Shown: in pieces, positions 52,758-64,000 of the stretch
Position numbering within the stretch: position 1 is the stretch's first letter
Layout of the letters: each line of letters begins with the position of its first letter
DNA from: Psychrobacter sp. I-STPA10
Lineage (GTDB): Bacteria > Pseudomonadota > Gammaproteobacteria > Pseudomonadales > Moraxellaceae
Assembly: GCF_021012795.1 (NCBI RefSeq)
Contig: NZ_VFYU01000018.1
Coordinates: forward strand, 124,001 to 188,000
Length of the DNA: 64,000 nucleotides
Direction: 5' to 3'
The notes under the pieces: model-generated
Seen by the model: the letters and a program-made list of their open reading frames with translations, nothing else
The model's database searches: none
Told to the model about the DNA's origin: nothing
Made by a program: the position numbers and the translations under genes

Positions 52758-53339
52758 ATGAACCTTAATCTGAATTCCACCATATATAAATACTATAAAC
52801 ATAGGCAATTACATGCTAAATACCATAAACAATTTGGGTTTACTTTAATTGAGTTGATGGTAGTGATAGTTATCATTGCTATCCTTGCTGCTATTGCTAT
52901 ACCAAGCTATCGTCGCTATGTGATAAAAAATACAGAGGATGAAACCAAGGCGCAGATGCAGCAGTTAGAAATACAGCTAGAGCGTTGGCGGTCTTCTGCG
53001 CTCAGCTATAAAGGTTTCTATCCTCAAAATGGCGTAGATACAAATGGTGAACCAAAGTTTGGTTATAGCGATGCAGCTAAAAAGACTGTGTATGTGCCAT
53101 TGGGCAGTGATGCTAATAATCATCGCTATAAGATAATCCTAGTTGATAGTAGTGGTAAAAGTTTGACAGACACGACAGCAGTAGGGCGATCTTGGAAAAT
53201 GTTGGCTGAACCTAGAGCTGATGGTCCAGCGAGTAGTGGATATAAAATAAGAATGGATAGTACAGGAGTACGTTGTCAAAGTAAGGCGAGTGGAATTGAT
53301 ATTTCTAGCTGTGGAACAACTGCTGTGGAGTCATGGTAA
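52758..53339 (+). CDS. pilE: PilE-like minor type IV pilin
   Basis: This 193-residue prepilin has a long 27-residue leader, then the site [31 protein letters not shown] with Glu5. In the C-terminal domain the patterns AQMQQLEIQLERWRSS and KMLAEPRADGPASSGY resemble PilE proteins encoded after pilY1. Cysteines near residues 174 and 184 may form the D-region disulfide. It starts 2 bases after the pilY1 stop. The long leader is unusual, but no internal ATG gives a shorter one with good spacing. Confidence 0.88.
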   Translation: MNLNLNSTIYKYYKHRQLHAKYHKQFGFTLIELMVVIVIIAILAAIAIPSYRRYVIKNTEDETKAQMQQLEIQLERWRSSALSYKGFYPQNGVDTNGEPKFGYSDAAKKTVYVPLGSDANNHRYKIILVDSSGKSLTDTTAVGRSWKMLAEPRADGPASSGYKIRMDSTGVRCQSKASGIDISSCGTTAVESW

Positions 53340-53770
53340 TGAAAAAACTTATTTCACAAAAAGGTTTTACTTTAATTGAAGTTATGGTTGTCGTTGCAAT
53401 TATTGCCATACTAGCTGCTATTGCCTATCCTAGTTATCAACATTATGTCATCAAAACAAAGCGTGGTGATATGATGAGTGAAATGCAAAATATTGCCAGT
53501 CAAATAGAGAGTGGAAAGCTAGCACAAGGACAATATAGCGCTGTTAGTGTGAGTGGATTAACTGGTGACTATCCCAAACAAGGAACAGCTTTATATACTG
53601 TCACAATAACGCCCTCTCCTTTGACTGCAAAATGGACAATCACTGCTACTACTAAATCAGGACAAATGCAAGGTGATGGTAACTTAACCTTAAATTATGC
53701 TGGCACAAAATGTCGAATTATTGATTCTAGTCACAAGAAATGTGGTACAGGTAATGAATGGCGTGATTAA
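53339..53770 (+). CDS. Second PilE-like minor type IV pilin
   Basis: This 143-residue prepilin has the leader MKKLISQKG and site G/FTLIEVMVVVAIIAILAAIAYPSYQHYV. The mid section (EMQNIASQIESGKLAQGQY, then TITPSPLTAKWTITAT) resembles PilE/FimA-like minor pilins of Acinetobacter and relatives. Two C-terminal cysteines (TKCRII and KKCGTG) define a short D-loop. The start at 53339 overlaps the previous stop (TAATG); an ATG two codons earlier is in frame but less likely. It is the last gene before a strong terminator. Confidence 0.87.
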   Translation: MKKLISQKGFTLIEVMVVVAIIAILAAIAYPSYQHYVIKTKRGDMMSEMQNIASQIESGKLAQGQYSAVSVSGLTGDYPKQGTALYTVTITPSPLTAKWTITATTKSGQMQGDGNLTLNYAGTKCRIIDSSHKKCGTGNEWRD

Positions 53771-53794
53771 AGTTTTTTTCTATTAATATTATTC

Positions 53795-53832
53795 ACAATA
53801 AAAAACCAATCATTTGATTGGTTTTTTATTGT
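53795..53832 (+). terminator. Rho-independent terminator of the minor pilin operon
   Basis: A perfect 17-base stem (ACAATAAAAAACCAATC and its complement) with a 4-base ATTT loop lies 25 bases after the last minor pilin stop. The second arm contains six T. It separates the operon from the pilA control region. Confidence 0.88.
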
Positions 53833-53949
53833 CAGCCATTTAGTGCCAAAAATTGTCAGTAACGTATTATATCTACATTGAAGACAAAAATGGGTAACAA
53901 TAAGTGACAATGATATAATGTTGACAAATAATGTCAGCAAAAATTGTCA
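53830..53949 (+). promoter_or_regulatory. Cluster of six TGTCA/TGACA sites upstream of pilA
   Basis: TGTCA occurs at 53830, 53854, 53932 and 53945, and TGACA at 53905 and 53922, all within 120 bases. The cluster lies about 160-280 bases before the sigma-54 promoter, the usual distance for an enhancer. PilR of Pseudomonas aeruginosa is known to bind repeated TGTC-containing sites upstream of pilA, so these are candidate PilR sites. The assignment is an inference. Confidence 0.55.
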
Positions 53950-54107
53950 ACAAAATAAAATAGAGATTGGACTATTGGGATAATAAAGCAATGGATTTTG
54001 ACTGAGTTTCCATTAATTACTCATAAAATACCGCTTATCTGTCATTTATCAATAAATAGTACTTTTATAGCCTATTGCCACAATAAATCGGAAATTATAT
54101 AAAAAGT

Positions 54108-54123
54108 TGGCACAGCATCTGCA
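54108..54123 (+). promoter_or_regulatory. Sigma-54 promoter of pilA
   Basis: TGGCACAGCATCTGCA matches the sigma-54 consensus (TGGCAC-N5-TTGCA) with a perfect -24 element and correct spacing to the -12 GC. It lies 90 bases before the pilA ATG. Sigma-54 with the PilS/PilR two-component system drives pilA in Pseudomonas and Moraxella relatives. Confidence 0.85.
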
Positions 54124-54212
54124 TCAATACTATTGAAGCCAAACAAAAGGCTTACTCAAAACATAACATATAAAGCCATAATATAATGGCTTTAACAAAA
54201 AAGGAGTTCATT

Positions 54213-54656
54213 ATGAACACTCAAGCGCAAAAAGGTTTTACCCTAATCGAATTAATGATTGTTATCGCTATTATCGGTATCTTAGCTGCAATCGCTATTC
54301 CAGCTTACCAAGATTATATTACTCGTTCACAAGTTTCTGAAGCTGTAACTTTAGGTGGTGGACTGAAGTCTCCATTAGCTGACTATGGTTCTGATAAGAA
54401 TGGATGGCCTACTAAATTAGTTTCTCCTACTGCAACACCAACTGCAACACAGTTGAATGCAACTATTACAGGTAAATATTCTACAGTAACTGACACTATA
54501 AGTGGAGCATATCCTGCTGGTACAGTCACTGTTAATATGACTTCTGGTCGCGCAAGTGGTTCTACATTAACATTTGCTACAGCAGATGGTGGTGCAACTT
54601 GGAGCTGTACTGGCGGTACTGTTGATATGAAATATCGTCCAAATGCATGTCGCTAA
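54213..54656 (+). CDS. pilA: Major type IV pilin PilA
   Basis: This is the pilus fibre subunit of 147 residues. The leader MNTQAQKG is cut before [28 protein letters not shown], with Glu5. The C-terminal disulfide loop lies between the two cysteines of WSCTGG and NACR. The chain is rich in Thr and Ser, especially at about residues 70-95 ([10 protein letters not shown]). The start at 54213 is preferred to an ATG nine codons earlier because AAGGAG lies 6 bases upstream and the leader then has normal length. It is controlled by a sigma-54 promoter, ends at a strong terminator, and is followed by the putative arabinosylation operon. Confidence 0.96.
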
Positions 54657-54690
54657 TGATTGCGATTTTATGTTAACAATATGATTTTTT

Positions 54691-54724
54691 AAAATAAGAC
54701 CCTAGAAATAGGGTCTTATTTTTT
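54691..54724 (+). terminator. Rho-independent terminator of pilA
   Basis: A 14-base arm AAAATAAGACCCTA pairs with TAGGGTCTTATTTT around a GAAA tetraloop and is followed by T. It lies 35 bases after the pilA stop and isolates pilA from the downstream operon. Confidence 0.93.
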
Positions 54725-54819
54725 ATCTAGCCTATATATAATATTTAGTGTAATCTATGGAGACGTTTAGATATATACTTTAATGGGATGCTTAGGTGTG
54801 TAATATAGGAGTGAATAAA

Positions 54820-56709
54820 TTGAAACAATTTATATTAGATAAAAATAAATATTTTTTTACATGTACATTTTTAGTTTTTTTCTTTGCTTTTATTTTATAT
54901 TTACCATTATTAAAAGCTGAGTATTTATGGGATGATACTCTAATTTTTGTTACCAATGGAAACCTGGTGGGTGATAAGTTAACTTGGGAGATATTAAGCG
55001 AACCAATATTGCCTGGTACCACTTATTTACGTCCTTTAGTGACTTTATCTTGGTTTGTTGAGTTTCATATATTTGGTCAAAATACGGTTATCTCTCACTC
55101 TATAAATTTAATTATATTCTTTTTAAATAGTTTATTAGTTGGAATAATCGCAACAAAACTTGCTAAGCTAAATGCTTATCATAGAGCAAATTGGATAGGA
55201 TTATTTGCAAGCGCATTATATTTATTTCATCCAGCCACATTAGAGACTACGGCATGGGTATCAGGTCGGTTTGACCAAATGGTAACTTTATTTTGCCTAC
55301 TTGCAATAAGTTTATTTCTTAGCAAAAAAAGTACTTTTAAAGTTTTTTTGATTGGCGTTTGTTATTTGCTCGCACTGTTTTCGAAAGAGTTAGGTATTAT
55401 TCTACCAGTATTACTATTGCTATTTTCTATTATAAAGCCACTTAACCCTGAATCATCTTTTGTTAAAAGTATCAAAGCTAGTATTGTAAGTAATAAGTTG
55501 TTATGGTTGTTATTAGTAGTTATTACCGGATTTTACTTTATTATTAGAATATACTCTATGGATTCACTATATCATAGTAAGTTTACCTCCTATTATGTTA
55601 ATGAAATTATTATTAATCAACTAAAACCATTTCAAACACTTAAATATTATATACTTGAGACAGTCTATCCTTTCCGAATTTTAAACCCAATTCATCCAAT
55701 TAATAGTTTAGATTTAACATCATTAGTATCAAAAGTATCATCTATCATTATTTTTTTTATAGTTGCTTTTTTAAGTGTTGTAGGATTATTAAAAAGAAAT
55801 GTAGTTGGTATTTTGTTTGTTTGCTCTTTATTATCAATTAGTTTGGTTCTTCATTTCATACCATTATCAATCATGGATAACTTATTTCATGAAAGATTTA
55901 TGACATTACAGTTAGCATTTAGCTGTATGATGTTCTCATTAATCCCGTACTCTAAAATATTTAATAAATTAAATCTAAAACAAAACTTAAAAAAATATCT
56001 GTCTATAATAGCGATTTGTTCTTGGTTTTTCTATTGTATCGTAACCCTATATTCAGTTATTCCATTTTGGATGAATGAGTTAAGCTTGTGGTATTGGACA
56101 TATCAGTCTTATCCAGATAATGAAGTAATGAGATATAATTATTTGTTATCAGCATCTCAATATGATAGAGATGATATATTGACTGAAGAGTTTGAAAAAA
56201 TTAAAAAATCTGATGAAGGCTTCTCACCTGGAACACAAATACTATATGCTAATTATTTATTAAAAGATAAAGATCCAGAGAGCTTAAACTACCTTGAAGG
56301 CTTAATTCAAGTTTTACCAAAATTTCATAATATGGCAGATGGAAAATTAAAAATGAATAGTTTTCAATTATCTGCTAGAATGATTTCTGGTATATATTCT
56401 GACTATAGTGGTGCGATGTTAATATTTAAGGATAATCCTCAAGAGGCTTTAAAGCAAAACCAAATTGCAGAGTTCTACTTACGAGAAGGAGAAAAATACC
56501 CACTATTACAATATAGAGTGGCTACTTTATTGATACTTAATAGGCAGGAAGAAGCTAAAGAAATTTCAGATGAATTGAAATTACAAAATTTCCCTAAAGG
56601 TGATAAGTATAAACAACAATCAATAAATGTAGTTAATTTATATTGTTCTAAAGATAATTTTGAAATTGAAGTATGTAAGAATAATAAATATTTAGATTAT
56701 TTTAAATAA
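54820..56709 (+). CDS. TfpW-like GT-C pilin glycosyltransferase (predicted)
   Basis: This is an inner-membrane protein of 629 residues with about ten to twelve hydrophobic spans in the first 420 residues. The first periplasmic loop holds an acidic pair (Asp38-Asp39 in YLWDDTLIF), and TYLRPLVTLSWF and SHSINLIIFFLNSLL follow, a pattern of GT-C enzymes that use polyprenyl-phosphate sugars. Residues about 425-629 are helical and TPR-like. Position after pilA and beside a D-arabinofuranose donor operon suggests the role of TfpW, which arabinosylates pilin in some Pseudomonas aeruginosa strains. The start TTG at 54820 is chosen for AGGAG 8 bases upstream; GTG at 54796 or 54811 is possible. Exact sugar and target are inferred. 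Confidence 0.78.
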   Translation: MKQFILDKNKYFFTCTFLVFFFAFILYLPLLKAEYLWDDTLIFVTNGNLVGDKLTWEILSEPILPGTTYLRPLVTLSWFVEFHIFGQNTVISHSINLIIFFLNSLLVGIIATKLAKLNAYHRANWIGLFASALYLFHPATLETTAWVSGRFDQMVTLFCLLAISLFLSKKSTFKVFLIGVCYLLALFSKELGIILPVLLLLFSIIKPLNPESSFVKSIKASIVSNKLLWLLLVVITGFYFIIRIYSMDSLYHSKFTSYYVNEIIINQLKPFQTLKYYILETVYPFRILNPIHPINSLDLTSLVSKVSSIIIFFIVAFLSVVGLLKRNVVGILFVCSLLSISLVLHFIPLSIMDNLFHERFMTLQLAFSCMMFSLIPYSKIFNKLNLKQNLKKYLSIIAICSWFFYCIVTLYSVIPFWMNELSLWYWTYQSYPDNEVMRYNYLLSASQYDRDDILTEEFEKIKKSDEGFSPGTQILYANYLLKDKDPESLNYLEGLIQVLPKFHNMADGKLKMNSFQLSARMISGIYSDYSGAMLIFKDNPQEALKQNQIAEFYLREGEKYPLLQYRVATLLILNRQEEAKEISDELKLQNFPKGDKYKQQSINVVNLYCSKDNFEIEVCKNNKYLDYFK

Positions 56710-56758
56710 TATAATAATATTTAGATTTAAGTATGAACTTTTATGTATTGGTGTATAT

Positions 56759-57649
56759 ATGAAAACCATATTCAGCTTGATCCGTTTGCTAAGACCTCAT
56801 CAATATATCAAAAATACATTTGTTTTTATAGGTGTTATATTTTCTCATTTATGGAGTTATGATTTTATTATAGACTCCATTTTCTTGTTTTTAAGTTTTT
56901 GTTGTATGGCAAGTACAGTTTATATTCTTAATGATATTGGTGATATTGAGTCTGATAGGAAGCATAAAACAAAAAAAAATAGACCACTTGCAAGTGGTGC
57001 CATATCTAAGAAAACAGCTTATGTAGTAGCTATTATATTAGTTGTATTATCTATACTCTTATCAAGTATCGTCAGTATTTTATCTTTAGTGTTAGTTATA
57101 AGTTATCTTATCATTAATATTTTTTATACTTTATATCTAAAGAGAGTAGTAATTATTGATGTATTTATCATATCTTTTGGTTTTATGCTTAGAATCCTAG
57201 CTGGCACTGTAGGTTTGGGAATTGAACCTTCTGAATGGTTATTACTATGTGGTTTAATGTTAACTTTATTTCTTGGATTTTGTAAGAGATGGTCAGAGCT
57301 TAATACCATGTCACCTATGATTATTCAAGATGGTTCCTCTATAACTAGAGCTGTACTGAAAGATTATAAGCTTGAAACTTTAGATCAATTTATTAGTATT
57401 ACTGCTGCTGCTGTTATCATTAGTTATGGACTTTATACAGTATCTGATAAGACAATAGAGATACATAATACTGGATATCTGATATATACTTTGCCTTTTG
57501 TAATTTATGGTATTTTTAGATATATTTATTTATTACATAAAGAAAATTCTGGCAATGATACAGCAAAAGATATTTTAAAAGATTGGCACTTGTTAATAAA
57601 CTCTTTTTTATGGTTGGTTTTAACTTTTTGGATTTTATATCATGGTTAA
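56759..57649 (+). CDS. UbiA-family polyprenyl-phosphate phosphoribosyltransferase (DPPR synthase-like)
   Basis: This 296-residue inner-membrane protein has eight or nine spans and the UbiA signature NDIGDIESDRKHKTKKNRPLASG at residues 58-80, preceded by LLRPHQYIKNTFVF. The NDxxDxxxD and HxxKxxRP form is that of decaprenyl-phosphate phosphoribose synthase, which joins PRPP to polyprenyl phosphate, the first step of D-arabinofuranose donor synthesis. It overlaps the next gene by 8 bases. Quinone or haem biosynthesis is less likely because all the following genes fit the arabinose pathway. The DNA is markedly AT-rich compared with nearby housekeeping genes. Confidence 0.88.
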   Translation: MKTIFSLIRLLRPHQYIKNTFVFIGVIFSHLWSYDFIIDSIFLFLSFCCMASTVYILNDIGDIESDRKHKTKKNRPLASGAISKKTAYVVAIILVVLSILLSSIVSILSLVLVISYLIINIFYTLYLKRVVIIDVFIISFGFMLRILAGTVGLGIEPSEWLLLCGLMLTLFLGFCKRWSELNTMSPMIIQDGSSITRAVLKDYKLETLDQFISITAAAVIISYGLYTVSDKTIEIHNTGYLIYTLPFVIYGIFRYIYLLHKENSGNDTAKDILKDWHLLINSFLWLVLTFWILYHG

Positions 57650-58631
57650 TAATATCAAACCTAACTATAGAAAATATATAAGTTTTTTAATTTATTCAAT
57701 AGTTATTGCGTTTATTGGATATATGTTATTAGCATTTTGGAGTGGTTGGCATGATTTTATAAAAGTTATAGAAGATATTGGTTTTGTAGGTCTTATCGTA
57801 GCACTTTTATTATCTTTATTTAACTATATTTTACGTTTTATCAGATGGCAAATTTGTCTTGGAGTGCAAGGATATAAAGTTCCTTTAATAAATAGTCTGG
57901 GTATATATTTAAGTGGTTTTGCATTAACCACTACACCTGGAAAATCTGGAGAAGCTATTAGAAGTTATTTTTTAAAAAAGCAGTATGATGTTTCATATAC
58001 TAATTCCTTAGCTCTTTTGATTAATGAAAGGTTTTATGATTTTTTAGCAATTTTTTTATTAGCTATAGTTGGTATTAACTTATTTGTAACATATAAATAT
58101 TTTATTATTTTTTCTTTTTTCTTTATTGTTATTTTTGCATTATTTATTTTAAAAAAAGGAGTGTTAGAGTTTTTTTTAGAATTTGTATGTACTTATGATA
58201 ATAAGGTGGCTTTTTTTCTACGGAGGGTTTTAGAAATAGGTATTAGTGTTAGACGTATTAATACAGTGGGGGTTTTTTCACTTAATTTAGTATTAAGTGT
58301 TTTAGCTTGGGGATCTGAAGCATATGCATTGTATTTCGTTTTAGATTTGTTGTCTTTATCTGTTAAAATAGATTATGCAATATTCACTTATGCTATCTCT
58401 ATGTTAATTGGCGCATTAAGTTTTTTACCTGGAGGATTAGGTAGTACAGAAGCAACAATGGTCACTATTTTAACATTAAATAATATAAATCAACCAATAG
58501 CCATCGCGGTGACTTTGTTTATTAGAGTTGTAACGTTATGGTTTGCTGTTTTGATTGGTATTCTTTCTTTGTTGATTGTTTTCTTTAAACTATCTATAAA
58601 TAAAAATGAATCAAATATATTCTTGGAATAG
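57642..58631 (+). CDS. Flippase-like membrane protein (LPG synthase TM / UPF0104 family)
   Basis: This 329-residue inner-membrane protein has about eight spans and the UPF0104/AglD2-like motifs LRFIRWQICLG, TTTPGKSGEAIRSYFL, NERFYDFLA and FLPGGLGSTEATM. Relatives include the transmembrane part of lysylphosphatidylglycerol synthase and membrane proteins beside glycan genes, which are thought to translocate lipid-linked sugars. In this operon it is the best candidate to flip polyprenyl-phosphate arabinose to the periplasm. That role is an inference from family and context. It overlaps both neighbours (8 and 26 bases). Confidence 0.82.
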   Translation: MVNNIKPNYRKYISFLIYSIVIAFIGYMLLAFWSGWHDFIKVIEDIGFVGLIVALLLSLFNYILRFIRWQICLGVQGYKVPLINSLGIYLSGFALTTTPGKSGEAIRSYFLKKQYDVSYTNSLALLINERFYDFLAIFLLAIVGINLFVTYKYFIIFSFFFIVIFALFILKKGVLEFFLEFVCTYDNKVAFFLRRVLEIGISVRRINTVGVFSLNLVLSVLAWGSEAYALYFVLDLLSLSVKIDYAIFTYAISMLIGALSFLPGGLGSTEATMVTILTLNNINQPIAIAVTLFIRVVTLWFAVLIGILSLLIVFFKLSINKNESNIFLE

Positions 58632-59919
58632 GATTCCAAATTTAAACATTGAAAGTAGTATTAAAGTTAATGATATTACTTCAGAAGTTTTTAAAAAAAA
58701 TATTGCCCCTTATACCATTTATGGAAATGGTAGAAGTTATGGTGATGTATGTCTGAATAATGTTGGTACTATTATCCAAGCAAGAGGTCTAAATAAGTTT
58801 ATAGATTTTAATGATAAGGAAGGGATTTTTACAGCAGAAGCTGGAGTTACATTAGAAGAAATTCTAAGTGTTATTGTTCCCAAAGGATGGTTTTTAACAG
58901 TAACACCTGGTACTAAATTTGTTACTCTAGGTGGAGCAGTAGCGAATGATGTGCATGGTAAAAATCACCATAAAGTTGGAAGTTTTGGGCATCATGTTAT
59001 TGCTTTTGAATTACTAAAATCCGATGGCACAAGAATAATTTGTACTCCACATGATAATAGTGAATATTTCAACGCTACAATAGGTGGATTAGGTTTAACA
59101 GGATTAATTACATGGGTATCTATTAAGTTAACTCGTATTAATAATCCATTAATATGGACTAGTAGTTATCGATTTCAAAATTTAGATGAGTTTTGGTACT
59201 TAAATAAAGCTATGGAGGATATTTGGGAGTATTCAGTTGCTTGGATTGATTTTTCTGCAAATAAGAGATCTTTAGGTAGGGGTATCTTATATGTAGGTCA
59301 ACATGCAGCTACTCAAAGCTTCCCGTATAAAAATATCAAAAATTCTAGAAAAATTAGCTTTCCTGTTACTCCCCCTTTCTCTCTTATAAACCAGTTATCT
59401 CTTTTTGCTTTTAATAAGCTTTACTATAATAAACCTACAGCTACCTTTGGTAAGCTTGTATATTATGATCAATTTTTTTATCCTTTAGATAATATTTTAA
59501 ATTGGAATCGTATTTACGGAAAAAAGGGTTTTTTCCAATACCAATGTGTAATACCTATGCATTCTGCTCAATATGCTATATATGAAATAATGAAAAAAAT
59601 AAGAAATAGTAATCAAGGGTCTTTTTTATCAGTACTAAAAGTTTTCGGTGAAAAAGAGTCAATAGGCTTATTGTCATTTCCTAAACATGGAGCAACATTA
59701 GCATTAGATTTTCCAAACTTAGGAGAAAAAACATTAAAGCTATTTCAGGAATTGGATAGTATTGTATTAGAAGCTTCTGGCAGAGTTTATCCTGCTAAGG
59801 ATTGTAGAATGTCAGTAGAGACCTTTAGAGCAGGGTATCCATTGTGGAGAAGTTTTGAAAAATTTGTAGATCCACAATTTTCTTCTTATTTTTGGAGGCG
59901 AGTTAATGGTAATTTATAA
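58606..59919 (+). CDS. DprE1-like polyprenylphosphoryl-ribose 2-oxidase subunit
   Basis: This 437-residue FAD-binding oxidoreductase contains YGNGRSYGD (residues 39-47) and TPGTKFVTLGGAVANDVHGK from residue 100, then NHHKVGSFG. These closely match the FAD domain of mycobacterial DprE1, including the HGKNHH segment. The C-terminal YPAKDCRMSVETFRAGYP matches its substrate domain, with the expected lysine. DprE1 oxidises the 2-hydroxyl of polyprenyl-phosphoryl ribose. No membrane span or signal is visible, so it is probably a cytosolic or peripheral membrane protein. The ATG at 58606 lies within the previous gene, and its end overlaps the SDR gene by 14 bases. Confidence 0.9.
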   Translation: MNQIYSWNRIPNLNIESSIKVNDITSEVFKKNIAPYTIYGNGRSYGDVCLNNVGTIIQARGLNKFIDFNDKEGIFTAEAGVTLEEILSVIVPKGWFLTVTPGTKFVTLGGAVANDVHGKNHHKVGSFGHHVIAFELLKSDGTRIICTPHDNSEYFNATIGGLGLTGLITWVSIKLTRINNPLIWTSSYRFQNLDEFWYLNKAMEDIWEYSVAWIDFSANKRSLGRGILYVGQHAATQSFPYKNIKNSRKISFPVTPPFSLINQLSLFAFNKLYYNKPTATFGKLVYYDQFFYPLDNILNWNRIYGKKGFFQYQCVIPMHSAQYAIYEIMKKIRNSNQGSFLSVLKVFGEKESIGLLSFPKHGATLALDFPNLGEKTLKLFQELDSIVLEASGRVYPAKDCRMSVETFRAGYPLWRSFEKFVDPQFSSYFWRRVNGNL

Positions 59920-60661
59920 GAGAGCATTAGTGTTTGGTGCAACTTCAGGAATTGCTCAGGAAATTATTAAAATACTAATTACAGAAGGTTGCTCTGTATA
60001 TTGCGTAAGTAGAAATATTAATAAACATGAAGCTCTTATTAAAGATTTGAACGTAAGAAAGGATATTAGTCAGAATATAGGGGGGGAAGTTATTGATTTA
60101 AATAGAATAGAAGAACATGAAAATATTATATATAGAGCTTTAGATTTTTTAGGAGAGATAGATGTAGTATTTATGGCTCAAGGAGTCTTACCTGAACATG
60201 ATAAAGTTATTAAAGAACCAGCATATGTTATAGATTGTATAAACACAAATGCTACTAATGTGATTCATTTAATCACCATAGTAACAAATGTTTTATTAGA
60301 ACAAGAAAGAGGAAGTATAGTTGTATTGAGTTCTGTAGCAGGTGATAGGGGACGACAAAGTAATTATGTGTATGGATGTTCGAAAGGAATGTTAAGTATA
60401 TTTTTACAAGGATTAAGAAATAGACTTGTCAATCAAAATATTCATGTTATGACAGTGAAGCCAGGGTTTGTTGATACAGAGATGACAAAAGATATACAGA
60501 ATAAAGGTATCTTATGGGCCCAACCAGATAGTGTGGCAAGAAGTATTATCAAAGCCTTAAAAAAGAAAAAAGATATCGTATATATACCTTGGTTTTGGCA
60601 ATGGATTATGTTAATAATCAAAGTTATACCAGAAAAAATATTTAAGAGATTAAGTTTATGA
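59906..60661 (+). CDS. DprE2-like short-chain dehydrogenase (keto-sugar reductase)
   Basis: This 251-residue SDR has the NAD(P)-binding loop GATSGIAQEI at residues 11-20, the SSVAGDRGRQS segment with the catalytic serine, and the YxxxK pair Tyr156-Lys160 (YGCSKGML). Together with DprE1 it would reduce the 2-keto intermediate to polyprenyl-phosphoryl D-arabinose. The TVKPGFVDTEMT motif is typical of this SDR branch. The C-terminal hydrophobic segment (WFWQWIMLIIKVIPEKIF) could attach it to the membrane. It overlaps DprE1 and shares ATGA with the HAD gene. Confidence 0.87.
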   Translation: MVIYKRALVFGATSGIAQEIIKILITEGCSVYCVSRNINKHEALIKDLNVRKDISQNIGGEVIDLNRIEEHENIIYRALDFLGEIDVVFMAQGVLPEHDKVIKEPAYVIDCINTNATNVIHLITIVTNVLLEQERGSIVVLSSVAGDRGRQSNYVYGCSKGMLSIFLQGLRNRLVNQNIHVMTVKPGFVDTEMTKDIQNKGILWAQPDSVARSIIKALKKKKDIVYIPWFWQWIMLIIKVIPEKIFKRLSL

Positions 60662-61302
60662 GTGATAAATATGCTTTTTTTGATTTCGATGGTACATTAA
60701 CTAAAAAAGATAGTTTATTATTTTTTTTAAGATATTTAATTAATAATGATATATTGTTTTTAATTAAGATATTTTTATTATCTCCAATATTAATAGGATA
60801 TTTTCTTAAGATTATTCCAAACTATACTGCAAAAGAGAAATTAATAAGTTCTTTCGTTAAGGATAAGAAAATCAATTGGTTATATGATAAAAGTATTTTT
60901 TTTTCAGAAAAATTGGTTGTGAAAATTTTAAGAAAAGAAGGTATTGAAAAATTAAGGTACCATCAAAAAAAAGGGTATATTTGTGTTTTAGTTAGTGCTT
61001 CTTTAGAGGTTTATTTACAACCATGGGCTGAGAAACAAGGCTTTGATTATGTGATTGGAACTAAATTGCAAACAAAAGATGGTTTGTTAACTGGAAATTT
61101 TGTGGGTAATAATTGTTTTGGGGATGAAAAAGTTTATCGTATTGAGAATAGATTTGGAAGAGATTGTTGGATTGATAGTTTTGTGTATACAGACTCTTTA
61201 GCAGACCTTCCGATCCTGAAGAAATCTAGTTATCCTTTTATATTACATAAAGGATTTTTTATAAAATTTAATGATACACATACTAAAGTTTCTGATAGAT
61301 GA
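60658..61302 (+). CDS. HAD-IB family phosphatase (predicted polyprenyl-phosphoryl 5-phosphoribose phosphatase)
   Basis: This 214-residue HAD hydrolase has catalytic Asp9 and Asp11 in FFDFDGTLTKKDS, the motif II serine in VLVSASLEVYLQ, a lysine in GDEKVYRI, and the motif III acids in YTDSLADLPIL. One hydrophobic segment (ILFLIKIFLLSPILIGYFL) near residues 32-52 may embed in the membrane, which suits a lipid-linked substrate. In this context it would remove the 5-phosphate from polyprenyl-phosphoryl phosphoribose, between the UbiA and DprE1 steps. Mycobacteria use a PAP2-type phosphatase for this, so the HAD assignment is an inference. It is the last gene of the operon. Confidence 0.85.
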   Translation: MSDKYAFFDFDGTLTKKDSLLFFLRYLINNDILFLIKIFLLSPILIGYFLKIIPNYTAKEKLISSFVKDKKINWLYDKSIFFSEKLVVKILRKEGIEKLRYHQKKGYICVLVSASLEVYLQPWAEKQGFDYVIGTKLQTKDGLLTGNFVGNNCFGDEKVYRIENRFGRDCWIDSFVYTDSLADLPILKKSSYPFILHKGFFIKFNDTHTKVSDR

Positions 61303-61537
61303 GGTTTTTTTATTATTTGAGTCTAATATGTTAAGAATAGAAGCTAAGTGTGGTATAGTTAATTAAGGGAAACTGTGTATGTAGGGAATCTAAACTAATT
61401 ACTAACAAGGCTCTCAAAAACAAGTAACTAAAAACTATATTAGAAGATATGGTGATATTTGTAGATAATGGACAAAACTTGGATGTAGTTAGTTTACGTC
61501 CTTGATAAGGTTTAATAGTAAGTTGGAAGTTAAAGTT

Positions 61538-61978
61538 ATGAAGATATTGCAAAAAGGTTTTACATTAATAGAATTGATGATGGTAATTTTTATTATTGGT
61601 ATTTTAGCCGCCATTGCAATACCTGCTTATATGGATTATATCACAAGAGCACATGTATCAGAAGCAATAAATCTTGGCGCAGGTATGAAAGCAATCTTGG
61701 GTGAATATGGATGGAATCATGCAGCATGGCCAACAGCCTTAGTAGATAATAGTACACCTGCTGGTATAGGAGAGATTAATGTCACTTTAGTCGGCAAATA
61801 TTCTACTATGAGCCCCGTAGTTGTAGGTACCTATCCTCAAGCAAGTTTAACTATGACCATGACAACAGGTAGGGCGTCAGGACAAACTATTGTGTTTAAT
61901 ACAAATGATGGTGCTGCAACTTGGAGTTGTAATAGTGGTACGATAGATGATCGGTATCTTCCTAAAGCCTGCTATTAA
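61538..61978 (+). CDS. Second PilA-like type IV pilin
   Basis: This 146-residue prepilin has leader MKILQKG and site [25 protein letters not shown]. It aligns with pilA along its whole length, sharing ITRxxVSEA, GKYST, TSGRASG-like and DGAATWSC segments and the two C-terminal cysteines (WSCNSG and KACY). The sequence between is diverged. The start at 61538 is preferred to an ATG 12 codons earlier because it gives a normal leader; the ribosome-binding site is a weak GGAAG. No sigma-54 promoter is seen upstream, unlike pilA. It may be an alternative or silent pilin. Confidence 0.92.
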
Positions 61979-61994
61979 TTAAAAACTGTCTAAC

Positions 61995-62022
61995 CCACCA
62001 TAACTGAGTATTAGCATGGTGG
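61995..62022 (+). terminator. Possible terminator hairpin of the second pilin
   Basis: A perfect 7-base stem CCACCAT/ATGGTGG with a 14-base loop lies 17 bases after the stop. The T run starts 14 bases after the stem, so it is not a standard terminator. Confidence 0.4.
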
Positions 62023-62171
62023 AGTCAGAATAAGTTTGTTTTTTTTAAGAGTAACTAAAAATAAATTAACAAATAACTATCATACCTGATGAAAGCAAAG
62101 TTTAGTAATAAAAGACATGCATTATGTCAATATACTCATAAAATGTTCATACTCTAAATTATAAAAAATCT

Positions 62172-62495
62172 CTACTTCTCCAAATACTGCAATTTACCTT
62201 CAACGCCGTCCCATTCTTTGTGGTCAGGTAGGGGTTCTCTCATTTCGGTAATGTTATCCCACTGTTCAGCAAGCTCAGCGTTGAGCTCGATAAACACCTC
62301 TTGGCCAGCAGGCACTTCGTCTTCAGAGAAAATTGCATTGGCGGGACATTCTGGCTCACATAAAGCACAGTCGATACACTCATCAGGATGGATGACCAAA
62401 AAGTTAGGTCCTTCATAAAAACAGTCTACAGGGCAGACTTCCACACAGTCGGTGTATTTGCAGCGGATGCAATTATCAGTAACAACAAAGGCCAT
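62172..62495 (-). CDS. fdxA: Seven-iron ferredoxin FdxA
   Basis: This 107-residue ferredoxin begins [20 protein letters not shown], almost identical to Azotobacter ferredoxin I. The cysteines in [14 protein letters not shown] and [12 protein letters not shown] bind one 3Fe-4S and one 4Fe-4S cluster. The C-terminal extension ([24 protein letters not shown]) is also that of the family. It is a cytosolic electron carrier. It is encoded downstream of mutS on the same strand with a 126-base gap, an arrangement also seen in related gammaproteobacteria. Confidence 0.97.
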
Positions 62496-62621
62496 AGCGA
62501 CGGCTACCTTCTATATTAGTGTTAAAATCTAGGGATTGGGGGACTGTTGAACAGCCCATAGTGTTTGTCAATCAATAGTACTGGTTAATCAAAGGCGTAT
62601 TTTACTCTCTTCTATCCTATT

Positions 62622-64000
62622 TCACAAATCATCACAGTCACCATTTTTTAGAGCATATATGAGCTGTAAAGCTTGCATTGGGGTGAGTTCATCAGGGTTG
62701 ATATTCTTTAATCGCTCAATCAGTGTTAGGGCTTGCTGCATATGCGCTGGCGGTGTTTGATTAATGGGTGTATTTACAAATAAATCAAGGTTTTGGTCGT
62801 CTATATTGGTGTTGTGATTATGGCTATGGTCGTCTTGTCGATAAGCTTTGTCACAATTGGCATAGCTGTCATTATCATTATGGCTATTGCTTGATAAGTT
62901 TGGTGCTGTTGCCCTTGGTTGTAATTTTAAATCAGTGATAGGTTCTGCGACTTGACGACTGTTTTGCTGTAAATAGGCAGTAGAGGGGGGTATGTTTTGA
63001 TTTTGATGCAAATATGCTTGTGCTTGTATGAGTACTTGTTCAGGAATCCCCGCCATTTTGGCAACATGTAGCCCAAAGCTGGAGTTGGCAGCACCTGATT
63101 GGATTTTGTGCAGTAACAATAACTGTCCGTCAATTTCGCTGGCAGCAACATGAACATTGCGGATTTTGCCTTGCAGACGTTTTTGTTTGGCAAGTTCGGT
63201 TAGTTCAAAATAATGGGTTGCAAATAAGGTTAGGCTACCCATATCGCTGAGACGTTCGACACAAGCATGAGCAATGGCAAGTCCATCGCTGGTTGATGTA
63301 CCACGTCCTACTTCATCCATCAATACCAATGATTTGTCACTAGCAAGGTTTAAGATTTGTGCTGTTTCGATCATCTCTACCATAAAGGTAGATTTGCCAC
63401 CTGCTAAGTCATCGGCTGAACCAATACGGGTAAAGATACGATCAATGTCACTGATGGTAGCAGAGGCGGCAGGCACAAAACTGCCACAGCAAGCAAGCAG
63501 CACAATCAACGCGGTTTGGCGCATAAAGGTGGATTTGCCACCCATATTTGGTCCTGTAATTAATAGCAAACGCTGAGGATGACTGTCTATACCAAGATGG
63601 CAATCGTTGGCAATAAATGGACTTAATGAACGACTGTTTGTTGTTAAGTTTTTATTGGGTGTATGAAGGCGTGACTCAACGACCAAATGGCGACCTGCTT
63701 CGATGGCAATCCCTGAGCTGTTAGGGTCAAGCTGAGGACGTGTCCAGTGGTTGTTTTTGGCAAGTATTGCCCAGTTAATCATTACATCTAGCTGAGCGAT
63801 GGCATGAGCCAATCTTTGCATACTATTGAGTGAGTCGCTAAGTGTGTGTAGTAGTGTTTGATACAGTGCTTTTTCTCGTACTAATGCTTCAGTTTGTGCA
63901 CTCAGATACTCTGTCTCTAATATTTTTAAGGACTCAGTGATAAAGCGTTCGCTATTTTTTAACGTTTGTCGACGGATAAAATGTGACGGTGCTTGTTTGG
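62622..64000 (-). CDS. mutS: DNA mismatch repair protein MutS (N-terminus cut by the window edge)
   Basis: Only the C-terminal 459 codons lie in the window; the reading frame continues beyond 64000 through a [14 protein letters not shown] segment, so an internal ATG at 63821 is not the start. The ATPase domain shows Walker [17 protein letters not shown], the [17 protein letters not shown] signature, Walker [14 protein letters not shown], and the [10 protein letters not shown] motif. MutS recognises mismatches with MutL. Two features are odd: an Asn/His/Asp-rich insert of about 40 residues ([12 protein letters not shown], then [11 protein letters not shown]) before the C-terminal dimer helix, and a Thr/Asn-rich insert before the ATPase. 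Confidence 0.97.

Follow-up and report, generated by a model that had tools for sequence, protein, structure and literature searches.

What do six genes that recall a mycobacterial arabinose-lipid pathway do between two pilin genes of a Psychrobacter? In the 64,000-nucleotide (nt) stretch of Psychrobacter sp. I-STPA10 analysed here (NZ_VFYU01000018.1; the whole stretch is called the window below), positions 54820–61302 hold genes for a GT-C membrane protein, a UbiA-type synthase, a flippase-like protein, DprE1- and DprE2-like enzymes and a HAD phosphatase. An earlier note on this DNA had read them as six closely spaced or overlapping genes directly after pilA, whose products make polyprenyl-phosphate D-arabinofuranose (D-Araf) and modify the pilin. 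The six open reading frames (ORFs) are indeed intact, all on the + strand and free of internal stops, and a second pilin gene that the note did not mention lies beyond them (Table 1). Our analysis supports the earlier interpretation, in which the sugar and the target are predictions, and we consider the operon likely to be a self-contained pilin-arabinosylation cassette.

In the proposed pathway, the UbiA-type synthase would transfer ribose-5-phosphate from phosphoribosyl pyrophosphate (PRPP) to a polyprenyl phosphate, probably undecaprenyl phosphate; the HAD enzyme would remove the 5'-phosphate from the lipid, and the DprE1/DprE2 pair would oxidise and then re-reduce C2 to yield polyprenyl-phosphoryl-D-arabinofuranose. 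The LPG_synthase_TM protein would flip this lipid to the periplasm, and the TfpW-type GT-C protein would transfer D-Araf to Ser/Thr of PilA1, perhaps also of PilA2. By analogy with Pseudomonas paraeruginosa, in which pilin glycosylation gives resistance to certain phages (PMC12369383), arabinosylation would mask the pili from some pilus-binding phages. Starting from the gene families, the homology to TfpW, the active-site residues, the linkage to pilins and the co-occurrence of TfpW with DprE1, all of which are observed, we infer the enzyme substrates, the order of flipping and epimerisation, the sugar, the acceptor and the masking of phages.

The first gene of the operon encodes a TfpW homologue, as judged by sequence comparison. 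Its product is 35.7% identical (E 3e-136, 95% coverage) to the pilA-adjacent GT-C protein of genome G680, which we take to be PA7. A profile of the window protein and seven relatives from its family (A1), searched in 11 DprE1-carrying Pseudomonas genomes recognised by an RsmZ Rfam search, matched in two of them, with the best E-value, 9.6e-182, in G680, so that the TfpW-like character suggested in the earlier note was borne out. The G680 match immediately follows a pilin gene and precedes a 245-amino-acid (aa) gene, near the presumed pilB and pilC, which fits the published tfpW–tfpX arrangement beside pilA (PMC12369383), described as a pilin-modifying locus (PMC12369383, PMC2809737). The window protein lies at similar distances from the GT-C proteins of Psychrobacter maritimus (38% identity), Acinetobacter venetianus (37%) and PA7 (36%).

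The protein had no Pfam match up to E 1 and no NCBIfam match up to 0.01, and its family was assigned via the PA7 comparison and a predicted fold. Sequence alone did not place the fold, since an eight-sequence profile searched against the PDB sequences gave a single match, a designed helical-repeat protein at E 0.99. An AlphaFold (AF2) model from 13 sequences (predicted local distance difference test 85.8, predicted template-modelling score 0.85) points to an N-terminal GT-C fold: in comparisons with solved structures (VIA), it aligned with a yeast oligosaccharyltransferase chain (Z 20.0, root-mean-square deviation 5.0 over 343 residues) and, over about 340 residues, with ArnT (Z 17.8) and the arabinosyltransferases AftB (15.4) and AftA (12.4). 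The WDD motif at residues 37–39, after the first helix, is invariant in the 13 sequences. The C-terminal part, from about residue 416 to 629, is modelled as helical and aligns to TPR-like proteins (Z 12–13), a resemblance that may reflect a common arrangement only. Cysteines 609 and 619 in this part are invariant in the same 13 sequences.

The other five genes of the operon were placed in families by Pfam and NCBIfam, two of them under the equivalog cut-off of the named enzyme, and with the GT-C assignment above the gene-family labels of the earlier note all held. The UbiA-type synthase passed the NF008977 (decaprenyl-phosphate phosphoribosyltransferase) cut-off of 234 with 260.2 bits and matched the solved Rv3806c (PDB 8j8j) at E 1.1e-31; by sequence, it belongs to the phosphoribosyl-lipid family. 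Residue correspondences for the synthase and DprE1 were counted by hand on alignments to the solved structures. Synthase residues R12, K18, N58, D62, K72, R75 and K128 correspond to R22, K28, N73, D77, K87, R90 and K143 of Rv3806c, which contact PRPP or its Mg (PMC10994848). Quinone synthesis, an alternative that the earlier note had raised for this gene, was rejected, with 43 bits for the proteobacterial UbiA model.

The FAD oxidase is nearest to DprE1 in sequence, matching the solved DprE1 at E 1.2e-68, and its H117, K345 and K398 occupy the positions of H132, K367 and K418, which we take to be active-site residues of the Mycobacterium tuberculosis enzyme. At the position of Cys387, presumably the inhibitor-reactive cysteine of that enzyme, the window oxidase has A366, and Ala stands there in all 11 aligned sequences, the window's included. 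Lactone or glycolate oxidase was tried and rejected for this gene (at most 33 bits). The short-chain dehydrogenase/reductase (SDR) carries the motifs GATSGIA and YGCSK, and its best model was PRK07102 (264.5 bits, cut-off 267). The phosphatase matched PF12710 (109.9 bits) and TIGR01490 (HAD-IB; 127.8 bits, cut-off 98.3) and contains DFDGT, VSAS and DSLAD, which we take to be HAD motifs I, II and IV; we propose it as the phosphoribosyl-lipid phosphatase. The proposed flippase of the lipid-linked pentose matched PF03706 (167.9 bits) and TIGR00374 (101.9 bits, cut-off 43.2), the family of the MprF flippase domain.

The linkage to pilins goes beyond the window. PilA1 is about 70% identical to the PA7 pilin (69% in one alignment, 71% over aligned mature pairs), and at the closest TfpW loci (PA7, A. 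venetianus, P. maritimus, an Acidovorax record flagged as contaminated, G282 and two of G007) the best pilin is 63–77% identical to PilA1. Over the mature proteins, the identities to PilA1 were 71% and 60% for the two A. venetianus pilins, 72% beside TfpW and 58% beside fdxA in P. maritimus, 77% and 60% in G282, 74% and 63% at the two G007 loci, and 68% and 61% in the Acidovorax record. In 20 Psychrobacter loci lacking a TfpW match, no pilin was more than 48% identical to PilA1; two pilins at such loci reached 67–68% by local BLAST, which is 44–45% over the whole mature protein. Pilin type therefore follows the TfpW subgroup that contains the window and PA7. PilA1 and the PA7 pilin have in common a PTxT stretch at mature residues 64–67, and we take Thr64 and Thr66 to be the glycosylation sites of the Pa5196 pilin. 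PilA2 shares 56% identity with PilA1; with the second pilins of A. venetianus and G282, it shares 68% and 58%, respectively. In the window, A. venetianus and G282 (loci including L066 and L075), the TfpW gene is flanked by two different pilin genes, whose products may be co-modified or form mixed pili. No pilin was recognised at the Pelomonas locus.

Co-occurrence was scored in 299 genomes of the family, with a DprE1 homologue (E <= 1e-20) in 31 and a GT-C match (E <= 1e-5) in 20. DprE1 was present in all seven genomes with a close GT-C relative (E <= 1e-45; hypergeometric 6.7e-8, or 6.4e-7 without the window's genome, the genomes not being independent) versus one of the 13 whose only matches were distant (hypergeometric 0.77). 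In this family, therefore, D-Araf synthesis accompanies the close relatives of the GT-C protein but not the distant ones. GT-C matches below 1e-40 were also present in three other genomes of the order (G325, G315 and G505). Distant GT-C relatives of about 640 aa also adjoin pilin genes (L088 and some family genomes), as a tandem pair in G026, and may add other sugars to pilins.

These associations bear on a different reading, in which the products of the five donor genes serve to make a surface polysaccharide, the pilin genes being neighbours by chance. Two genomes, G705 and G029, do have the same donor genes together with PMT_2 glycosyltransferases and no pilin match, and in G751 these genes adjoin one for an ABC transporter. 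In the window, however, a TfpW homologue with a pilin gene on either side heads the operon, DprE1 accompanies the close TfpW relatives as described above, genome G461 repeats the pilin linkage, and the genome has only one DprE1 (E <= 1e-20) and one synthase (E <= 1e-30), so that we regard the polysaccharide explanation as quite improbable.

Several results weigh against pilin arabinosylation. The oxidase fell below the NF053785 (DprE1 equivalog) cut-off, with 350.4 bits against 500, and the SDR below that of NF053786 (DprE2 equivalog), with 157.9 against 250; the labels DprE1-like and DprE2-like of the earlier note need this qualification. In the synthase, Gln135 of Rv3806c is replaced by Asn120, and Lys208 has no clear counterpart. 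A Foldseek search of the GT-C model against the PDB found nothing under E 0.001 (best 0.051), and the support for the predicted fold consists of the second-look Z-scores. The PA7 TfpX query had no match in the window's genome, in a search with no positive control; TfpX is reported to be unnecessary for pilin modification (PMC11841053). Pilin type does not track the TfpW-type family as a whole, because the pilins at the G461, G689, G030 and G002 loci are only 36–41% identical to PilA1 (40%, 41%, 41% and 36%, respectively; G026, another distant GT-C locus, has 54%). Finally, the pentose on the window's pilin is a prediction from the genes.

The missed cut-offs in particular would fit a cassette that modifies the pilin with another pentofuranose, ribose or a further-processed sugar, by an oxidase and a reductase that have drifted from the DprE1/DprE2 reaction. 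In Citrobacter, an SDR epimerase of a different type turns ribofuranose into xylofuranose, and the GT-C protein is described as lacking strict donor specificity (PMC11127046). However, both genes in the window are intact and adjacent, H117 and K398 are kept, and the DprE1 and DprE2 homologues of PA7, a reported D-Araf maker, share only 39% and 40% identity with those of the window. The Araf-containing systems in the same source are those with DprE1/E2 homologues (PMC11127046), and we judge a different pentose unlikely.

Table 1 Features of the proposed pilin-modification locus in the window.
Feature	Coordinates	Strand	Remarks
pilA (PilA1), type IVa major pilin, probable acceptor	54213-54656	+	Pfam Pilin 63.8 bits, N_methyl
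Intrinsic-terminator-like hairpin and T-run, between pilA and operon	54691-54722	+	folding -18.3 kcal/mol
GT-C gene, TfpW-like, 629 aa	54820-56709	+	TTG start, AGGAG 8 nt upstream
Polyprenyl-phosphate phosphoribosyltransferase, UbiA superfamily, Rv3806c-like	56759-57649	+	NF008977; PDB 8j8j
LPG_synthase_TM / flippase-like membrane protein, proposed lipid-linked pentose flippase	57642-58631	+	PF03706, TIGR00374
DprE1-like FAD oxidase	58606-59919	+	PF01565; NF053785 below cut-off; PDB DprE1
DprE2-like SDR reductase	59906-60661	+	PF00106; NF053786 and PRK07102 below cut-offs
HAD-IB phosphatase, proposed 5'-phosphoribosyl-lipid phosphatase	60658-61302	+	PF12710, TIGR01490
PilA2, second full-length pilin, possible second acceptor	61538-61978	+	Pfam Pilin 56.8 bits

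Inside the operon, a 49-nt gap after the GT-C gene is followed by overlaps of 8, 26, 14 and 4 nt. The end of pilA and the GT-C start are 163 nt apart, with an in-frame GTG at 54796 upstream of the TTG. The hairpin in this interval (z -5.2; none of 200 shuffles equally stable) was not among the calls of a simple terminator scan; because it separates pilA from the operon, transcription from one into the other would need read-through. The G+C content is 27–30% in the four 2-kb bins over 54001–62000 and 34–46% in the other 28, which suggests acquisition as a unit. Both the low G+C content and the hairpin would suit a silent or decaying foreign island, and at the related locus of G208, a genome with no TfpW match, the kit lies among transposase-like ORFs (judged by eye). 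Yet all six frames are intact with active-site motifs, and in other species a terminator after the pilin gene is described as controlling the expression of accessory genes (PMC11841053); silence or decay thus seems to us highly improbable. Downstream of the PilA2 gene lie fdxA and mutS on the opposite strand, named from sequence without a family search.

The operon, a likely arabinosylation cassette, occupies a site of varied content in Psychrobacter. fdxA was found at 62 places in 59 of 60 Psychrobacter genomes, and 20 loci, chosen for long contigs, were read. Pilin-type genes adjoin fdxA and mutS in all 20, and 19 show a pilE-like gene, the L201 stretch ending before it. Counting ORFs of at least 90 aa between pilE and fdxA, 12 loci had extra genes besides pilins, six had pilins only and two had neither. 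The extra genes include O-antigen-ligase/PglL-type proteins by Pfam (L188, L195 and L200) and TfpX-like proteins by BLAST (L187 and L189). With such varied content, the site is a variable pilin-accessory locus of which the window's operon is one allele. In P. maritimus, TfpW follows pilA near one contig end, and the donor kit sits on another contig, ahead of a pilin, fdxA and mutS; this is consistent with the same site. At this site, sulfatase-domain and beta-lactamase-fold proteins lie between the two pilin genes of L202 (L202:11102-13686), and in L195 a beta-lactamase-fold protein comes after the second pilin (L195:7559-8821); these proteins may be enzymes that modify or process pilin. In L187, L188, L189 and L192, a conserved membrane-like protein of about 495 aa stands between the pilins and fdxA, with ORFs of the same length in L193 and L194; in L192, the only locus examined for it, it has a weak spermine-synthase/methyltransferase match.

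The donor genes come in two kits. Kit parts were searched by tblastn against 39 loci, namely the window and 38 from the DprE1, synthase or GT-C searches, some of which reach contig ends. Thirteen loci, among them PA7, A. venetianus (RAG-1, G135), P. maritimus (G091) and the Acidovorax record, carry a synthase, a DUF212 (divergent PAP2) phosphatase, GtrA, DprE1 and DprE2. The window's kit (kit B: synthase, LPG_synthase_TM, DprE1, DprE2 and HAD) was found in seven: the window, G461, G751, G913, G705, G816 and G029. HAD and DUF212 matches never occurred together, and 19 loci had neither full kit. Pfam confirmed DUF212 in A. venetianus, P. maritimus and PA7, and tblastn with the A. venetianus GtrA and DUF212 proteins found neither in window positions 53001–64000, while both GtrA and DUF212 were found at the PA7, A. 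venetianus and P. maritimus loci. At two further loci tested by Pfam, the synthase is about 490 aa long and matches HAD at its N-terminus (in one case below the Pfam cut-off), like the fused Citrobacter type (PMC11127046).

In the UbiA, DprE1 and DprE2 trees, the window grouped with G461, G751 and G913 (support 100/99, 97/93 and 93/88) and away from the other two Psychrobacter species; the group was starred in the UbiA and DprE1 trees but not in that of DprE2. The seven kit-B rows formed one clade in none of the three trees (2, 4 and 2 changes), and this group of four was the only one that recurred in all of them. In the GT-C tree, the window instead stood with P. maritimus, A. venetianus and G282 (92/93) and G461 with the Pseudomonas genome G689 (86/87), neither of them strong, and no starred set contained the window. 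From these different placements, the donor kit and the transferase seem to have separate histories. The kit also looks foreign to its genus, since the synthase occurs in three of 105 Psychrobacter genomes (E <= 1e-30), the other two being 37–40% identical and accompanied by the PA7-type kit. Repeated assembly of the one-locus arrangement of pilA, TfpW and kit is only suggested, because no starred set of the GT-C tree holds the window. The earlier note had called a complete set beside pilA unusual in this family; within Psychrobacter such a set is rare by the synthase count, but A. venetianus, a member of the family, has a complete set at pilA in another arrangement, and G461, from another family, has the six genes after pilA in the window's order.

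A broader reading, which we hold to be evenly poised between right and wrong, is plug-and-play pilin arabinosylation. TfpW-type transferases would use at least two non-homologous finishing sets (a PAP2-like phosphatase with GtrA, or HAD with LPG_synthase_TM), and members of one genus would exchange these sets as complete kits at a shared pilin locus; MprF-type proteins would add another class of pentofuranosyl-lipid flippases, and the arrangement of pilA, TfpW and kit in one locus would have been built more than once. If the cassette works as proposed, the sugar pathway best known as a tuberculosis drug target and the phage-shielding pilin modification of Pseudomonas would extend to Psychrobacter and its family. 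Compact and apparently self-sufficient, the cassette would be convenient for reconstituting, in a laboratory host, both the synthesis of lipid-linked D-Araf and the arabinosylation of proteins. It also makes pentose-lipid flipping by an MprF-type protein testable; for other flippase candidates, direct evidence of this step is reported to be lacking (PMC11127046).

Earlier work has described D-Araf glycosylation of pilins, TfpW and three-component pentofuranose systems. In the open-licence literature, whose coverage leaves out the primary Pseudomonas papers, we found no report of D-Araf pilin glycosylation for Psychrobacter or A. venetianus; nor was there a report of an LPG_synthase_TM flippase in such a role, in searches none of which named that family. 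As in PA7/Pa5196 (P. paraeruginosa), the window has a TfpW homologue directly after pilA, a UbiA synthase with DprE1/DprE2 homologues, and a related pilin. However, the PA7 donor genes (6.46 Mb) lie 1.15 Mb from tfpW (5.31 Mb), whereas the window holds everything in one locus; PA7 has a DUF212/PAP2 phosphatase and a GtrA flippase where the window has HAD and LPG_synthase_TM, and tfpX follows tfpW in PA7, while the window locus has no tfpX match. The PA7 donor island includes, after DprE2, a PMT_2-type membrane protein (L155:9879-11555) that has no counterpart in the window's operon and could use the D-Araf lipid differently.

With the mycobacterial decaprenylphosphoryl-arabinose pathway (Rv3806c, Rv3807c, DprE1/DprE2 and Rv3789), the window has in common a homologous synthase and DprE1/DprE2-type epimerisation. 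The parallels drawn in the earlier note, with mycobacteria and P. aeruginosa, hold for the synthase, DprE1/DprE2 and TfpW and break down at the phosphatase and flippase, which are of neither the mycobacterial nor the PA7 type; Rv3807c is reported to be unrelated to HAD phosphatases (PMC11127046). The mycobacterial acceptor is the cell-wall galactan, whereas that of the window is presumably pilin. The three-component pentofuranose systems of Citrobacter youngae likewise combine a UbiA-type synthase, a HAD-type phosphatase, a flippase and a GT-C protein, but there the HAD and synthase are fused, the flippase is of the MATE family and the acceptor is O antigen (PMC11127046). G461 (family f16) has the pilin, GT-C, UbiA, flippase, DprE1, DprE2 and HAD genes in the same order as the window, with donor genes 41–56% identical and the GT-C protein 29%. 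Its locus adjoins homologues of the presumed PA7 pilB and pilC, whereas that of the window adjoins fdxA–mutS.

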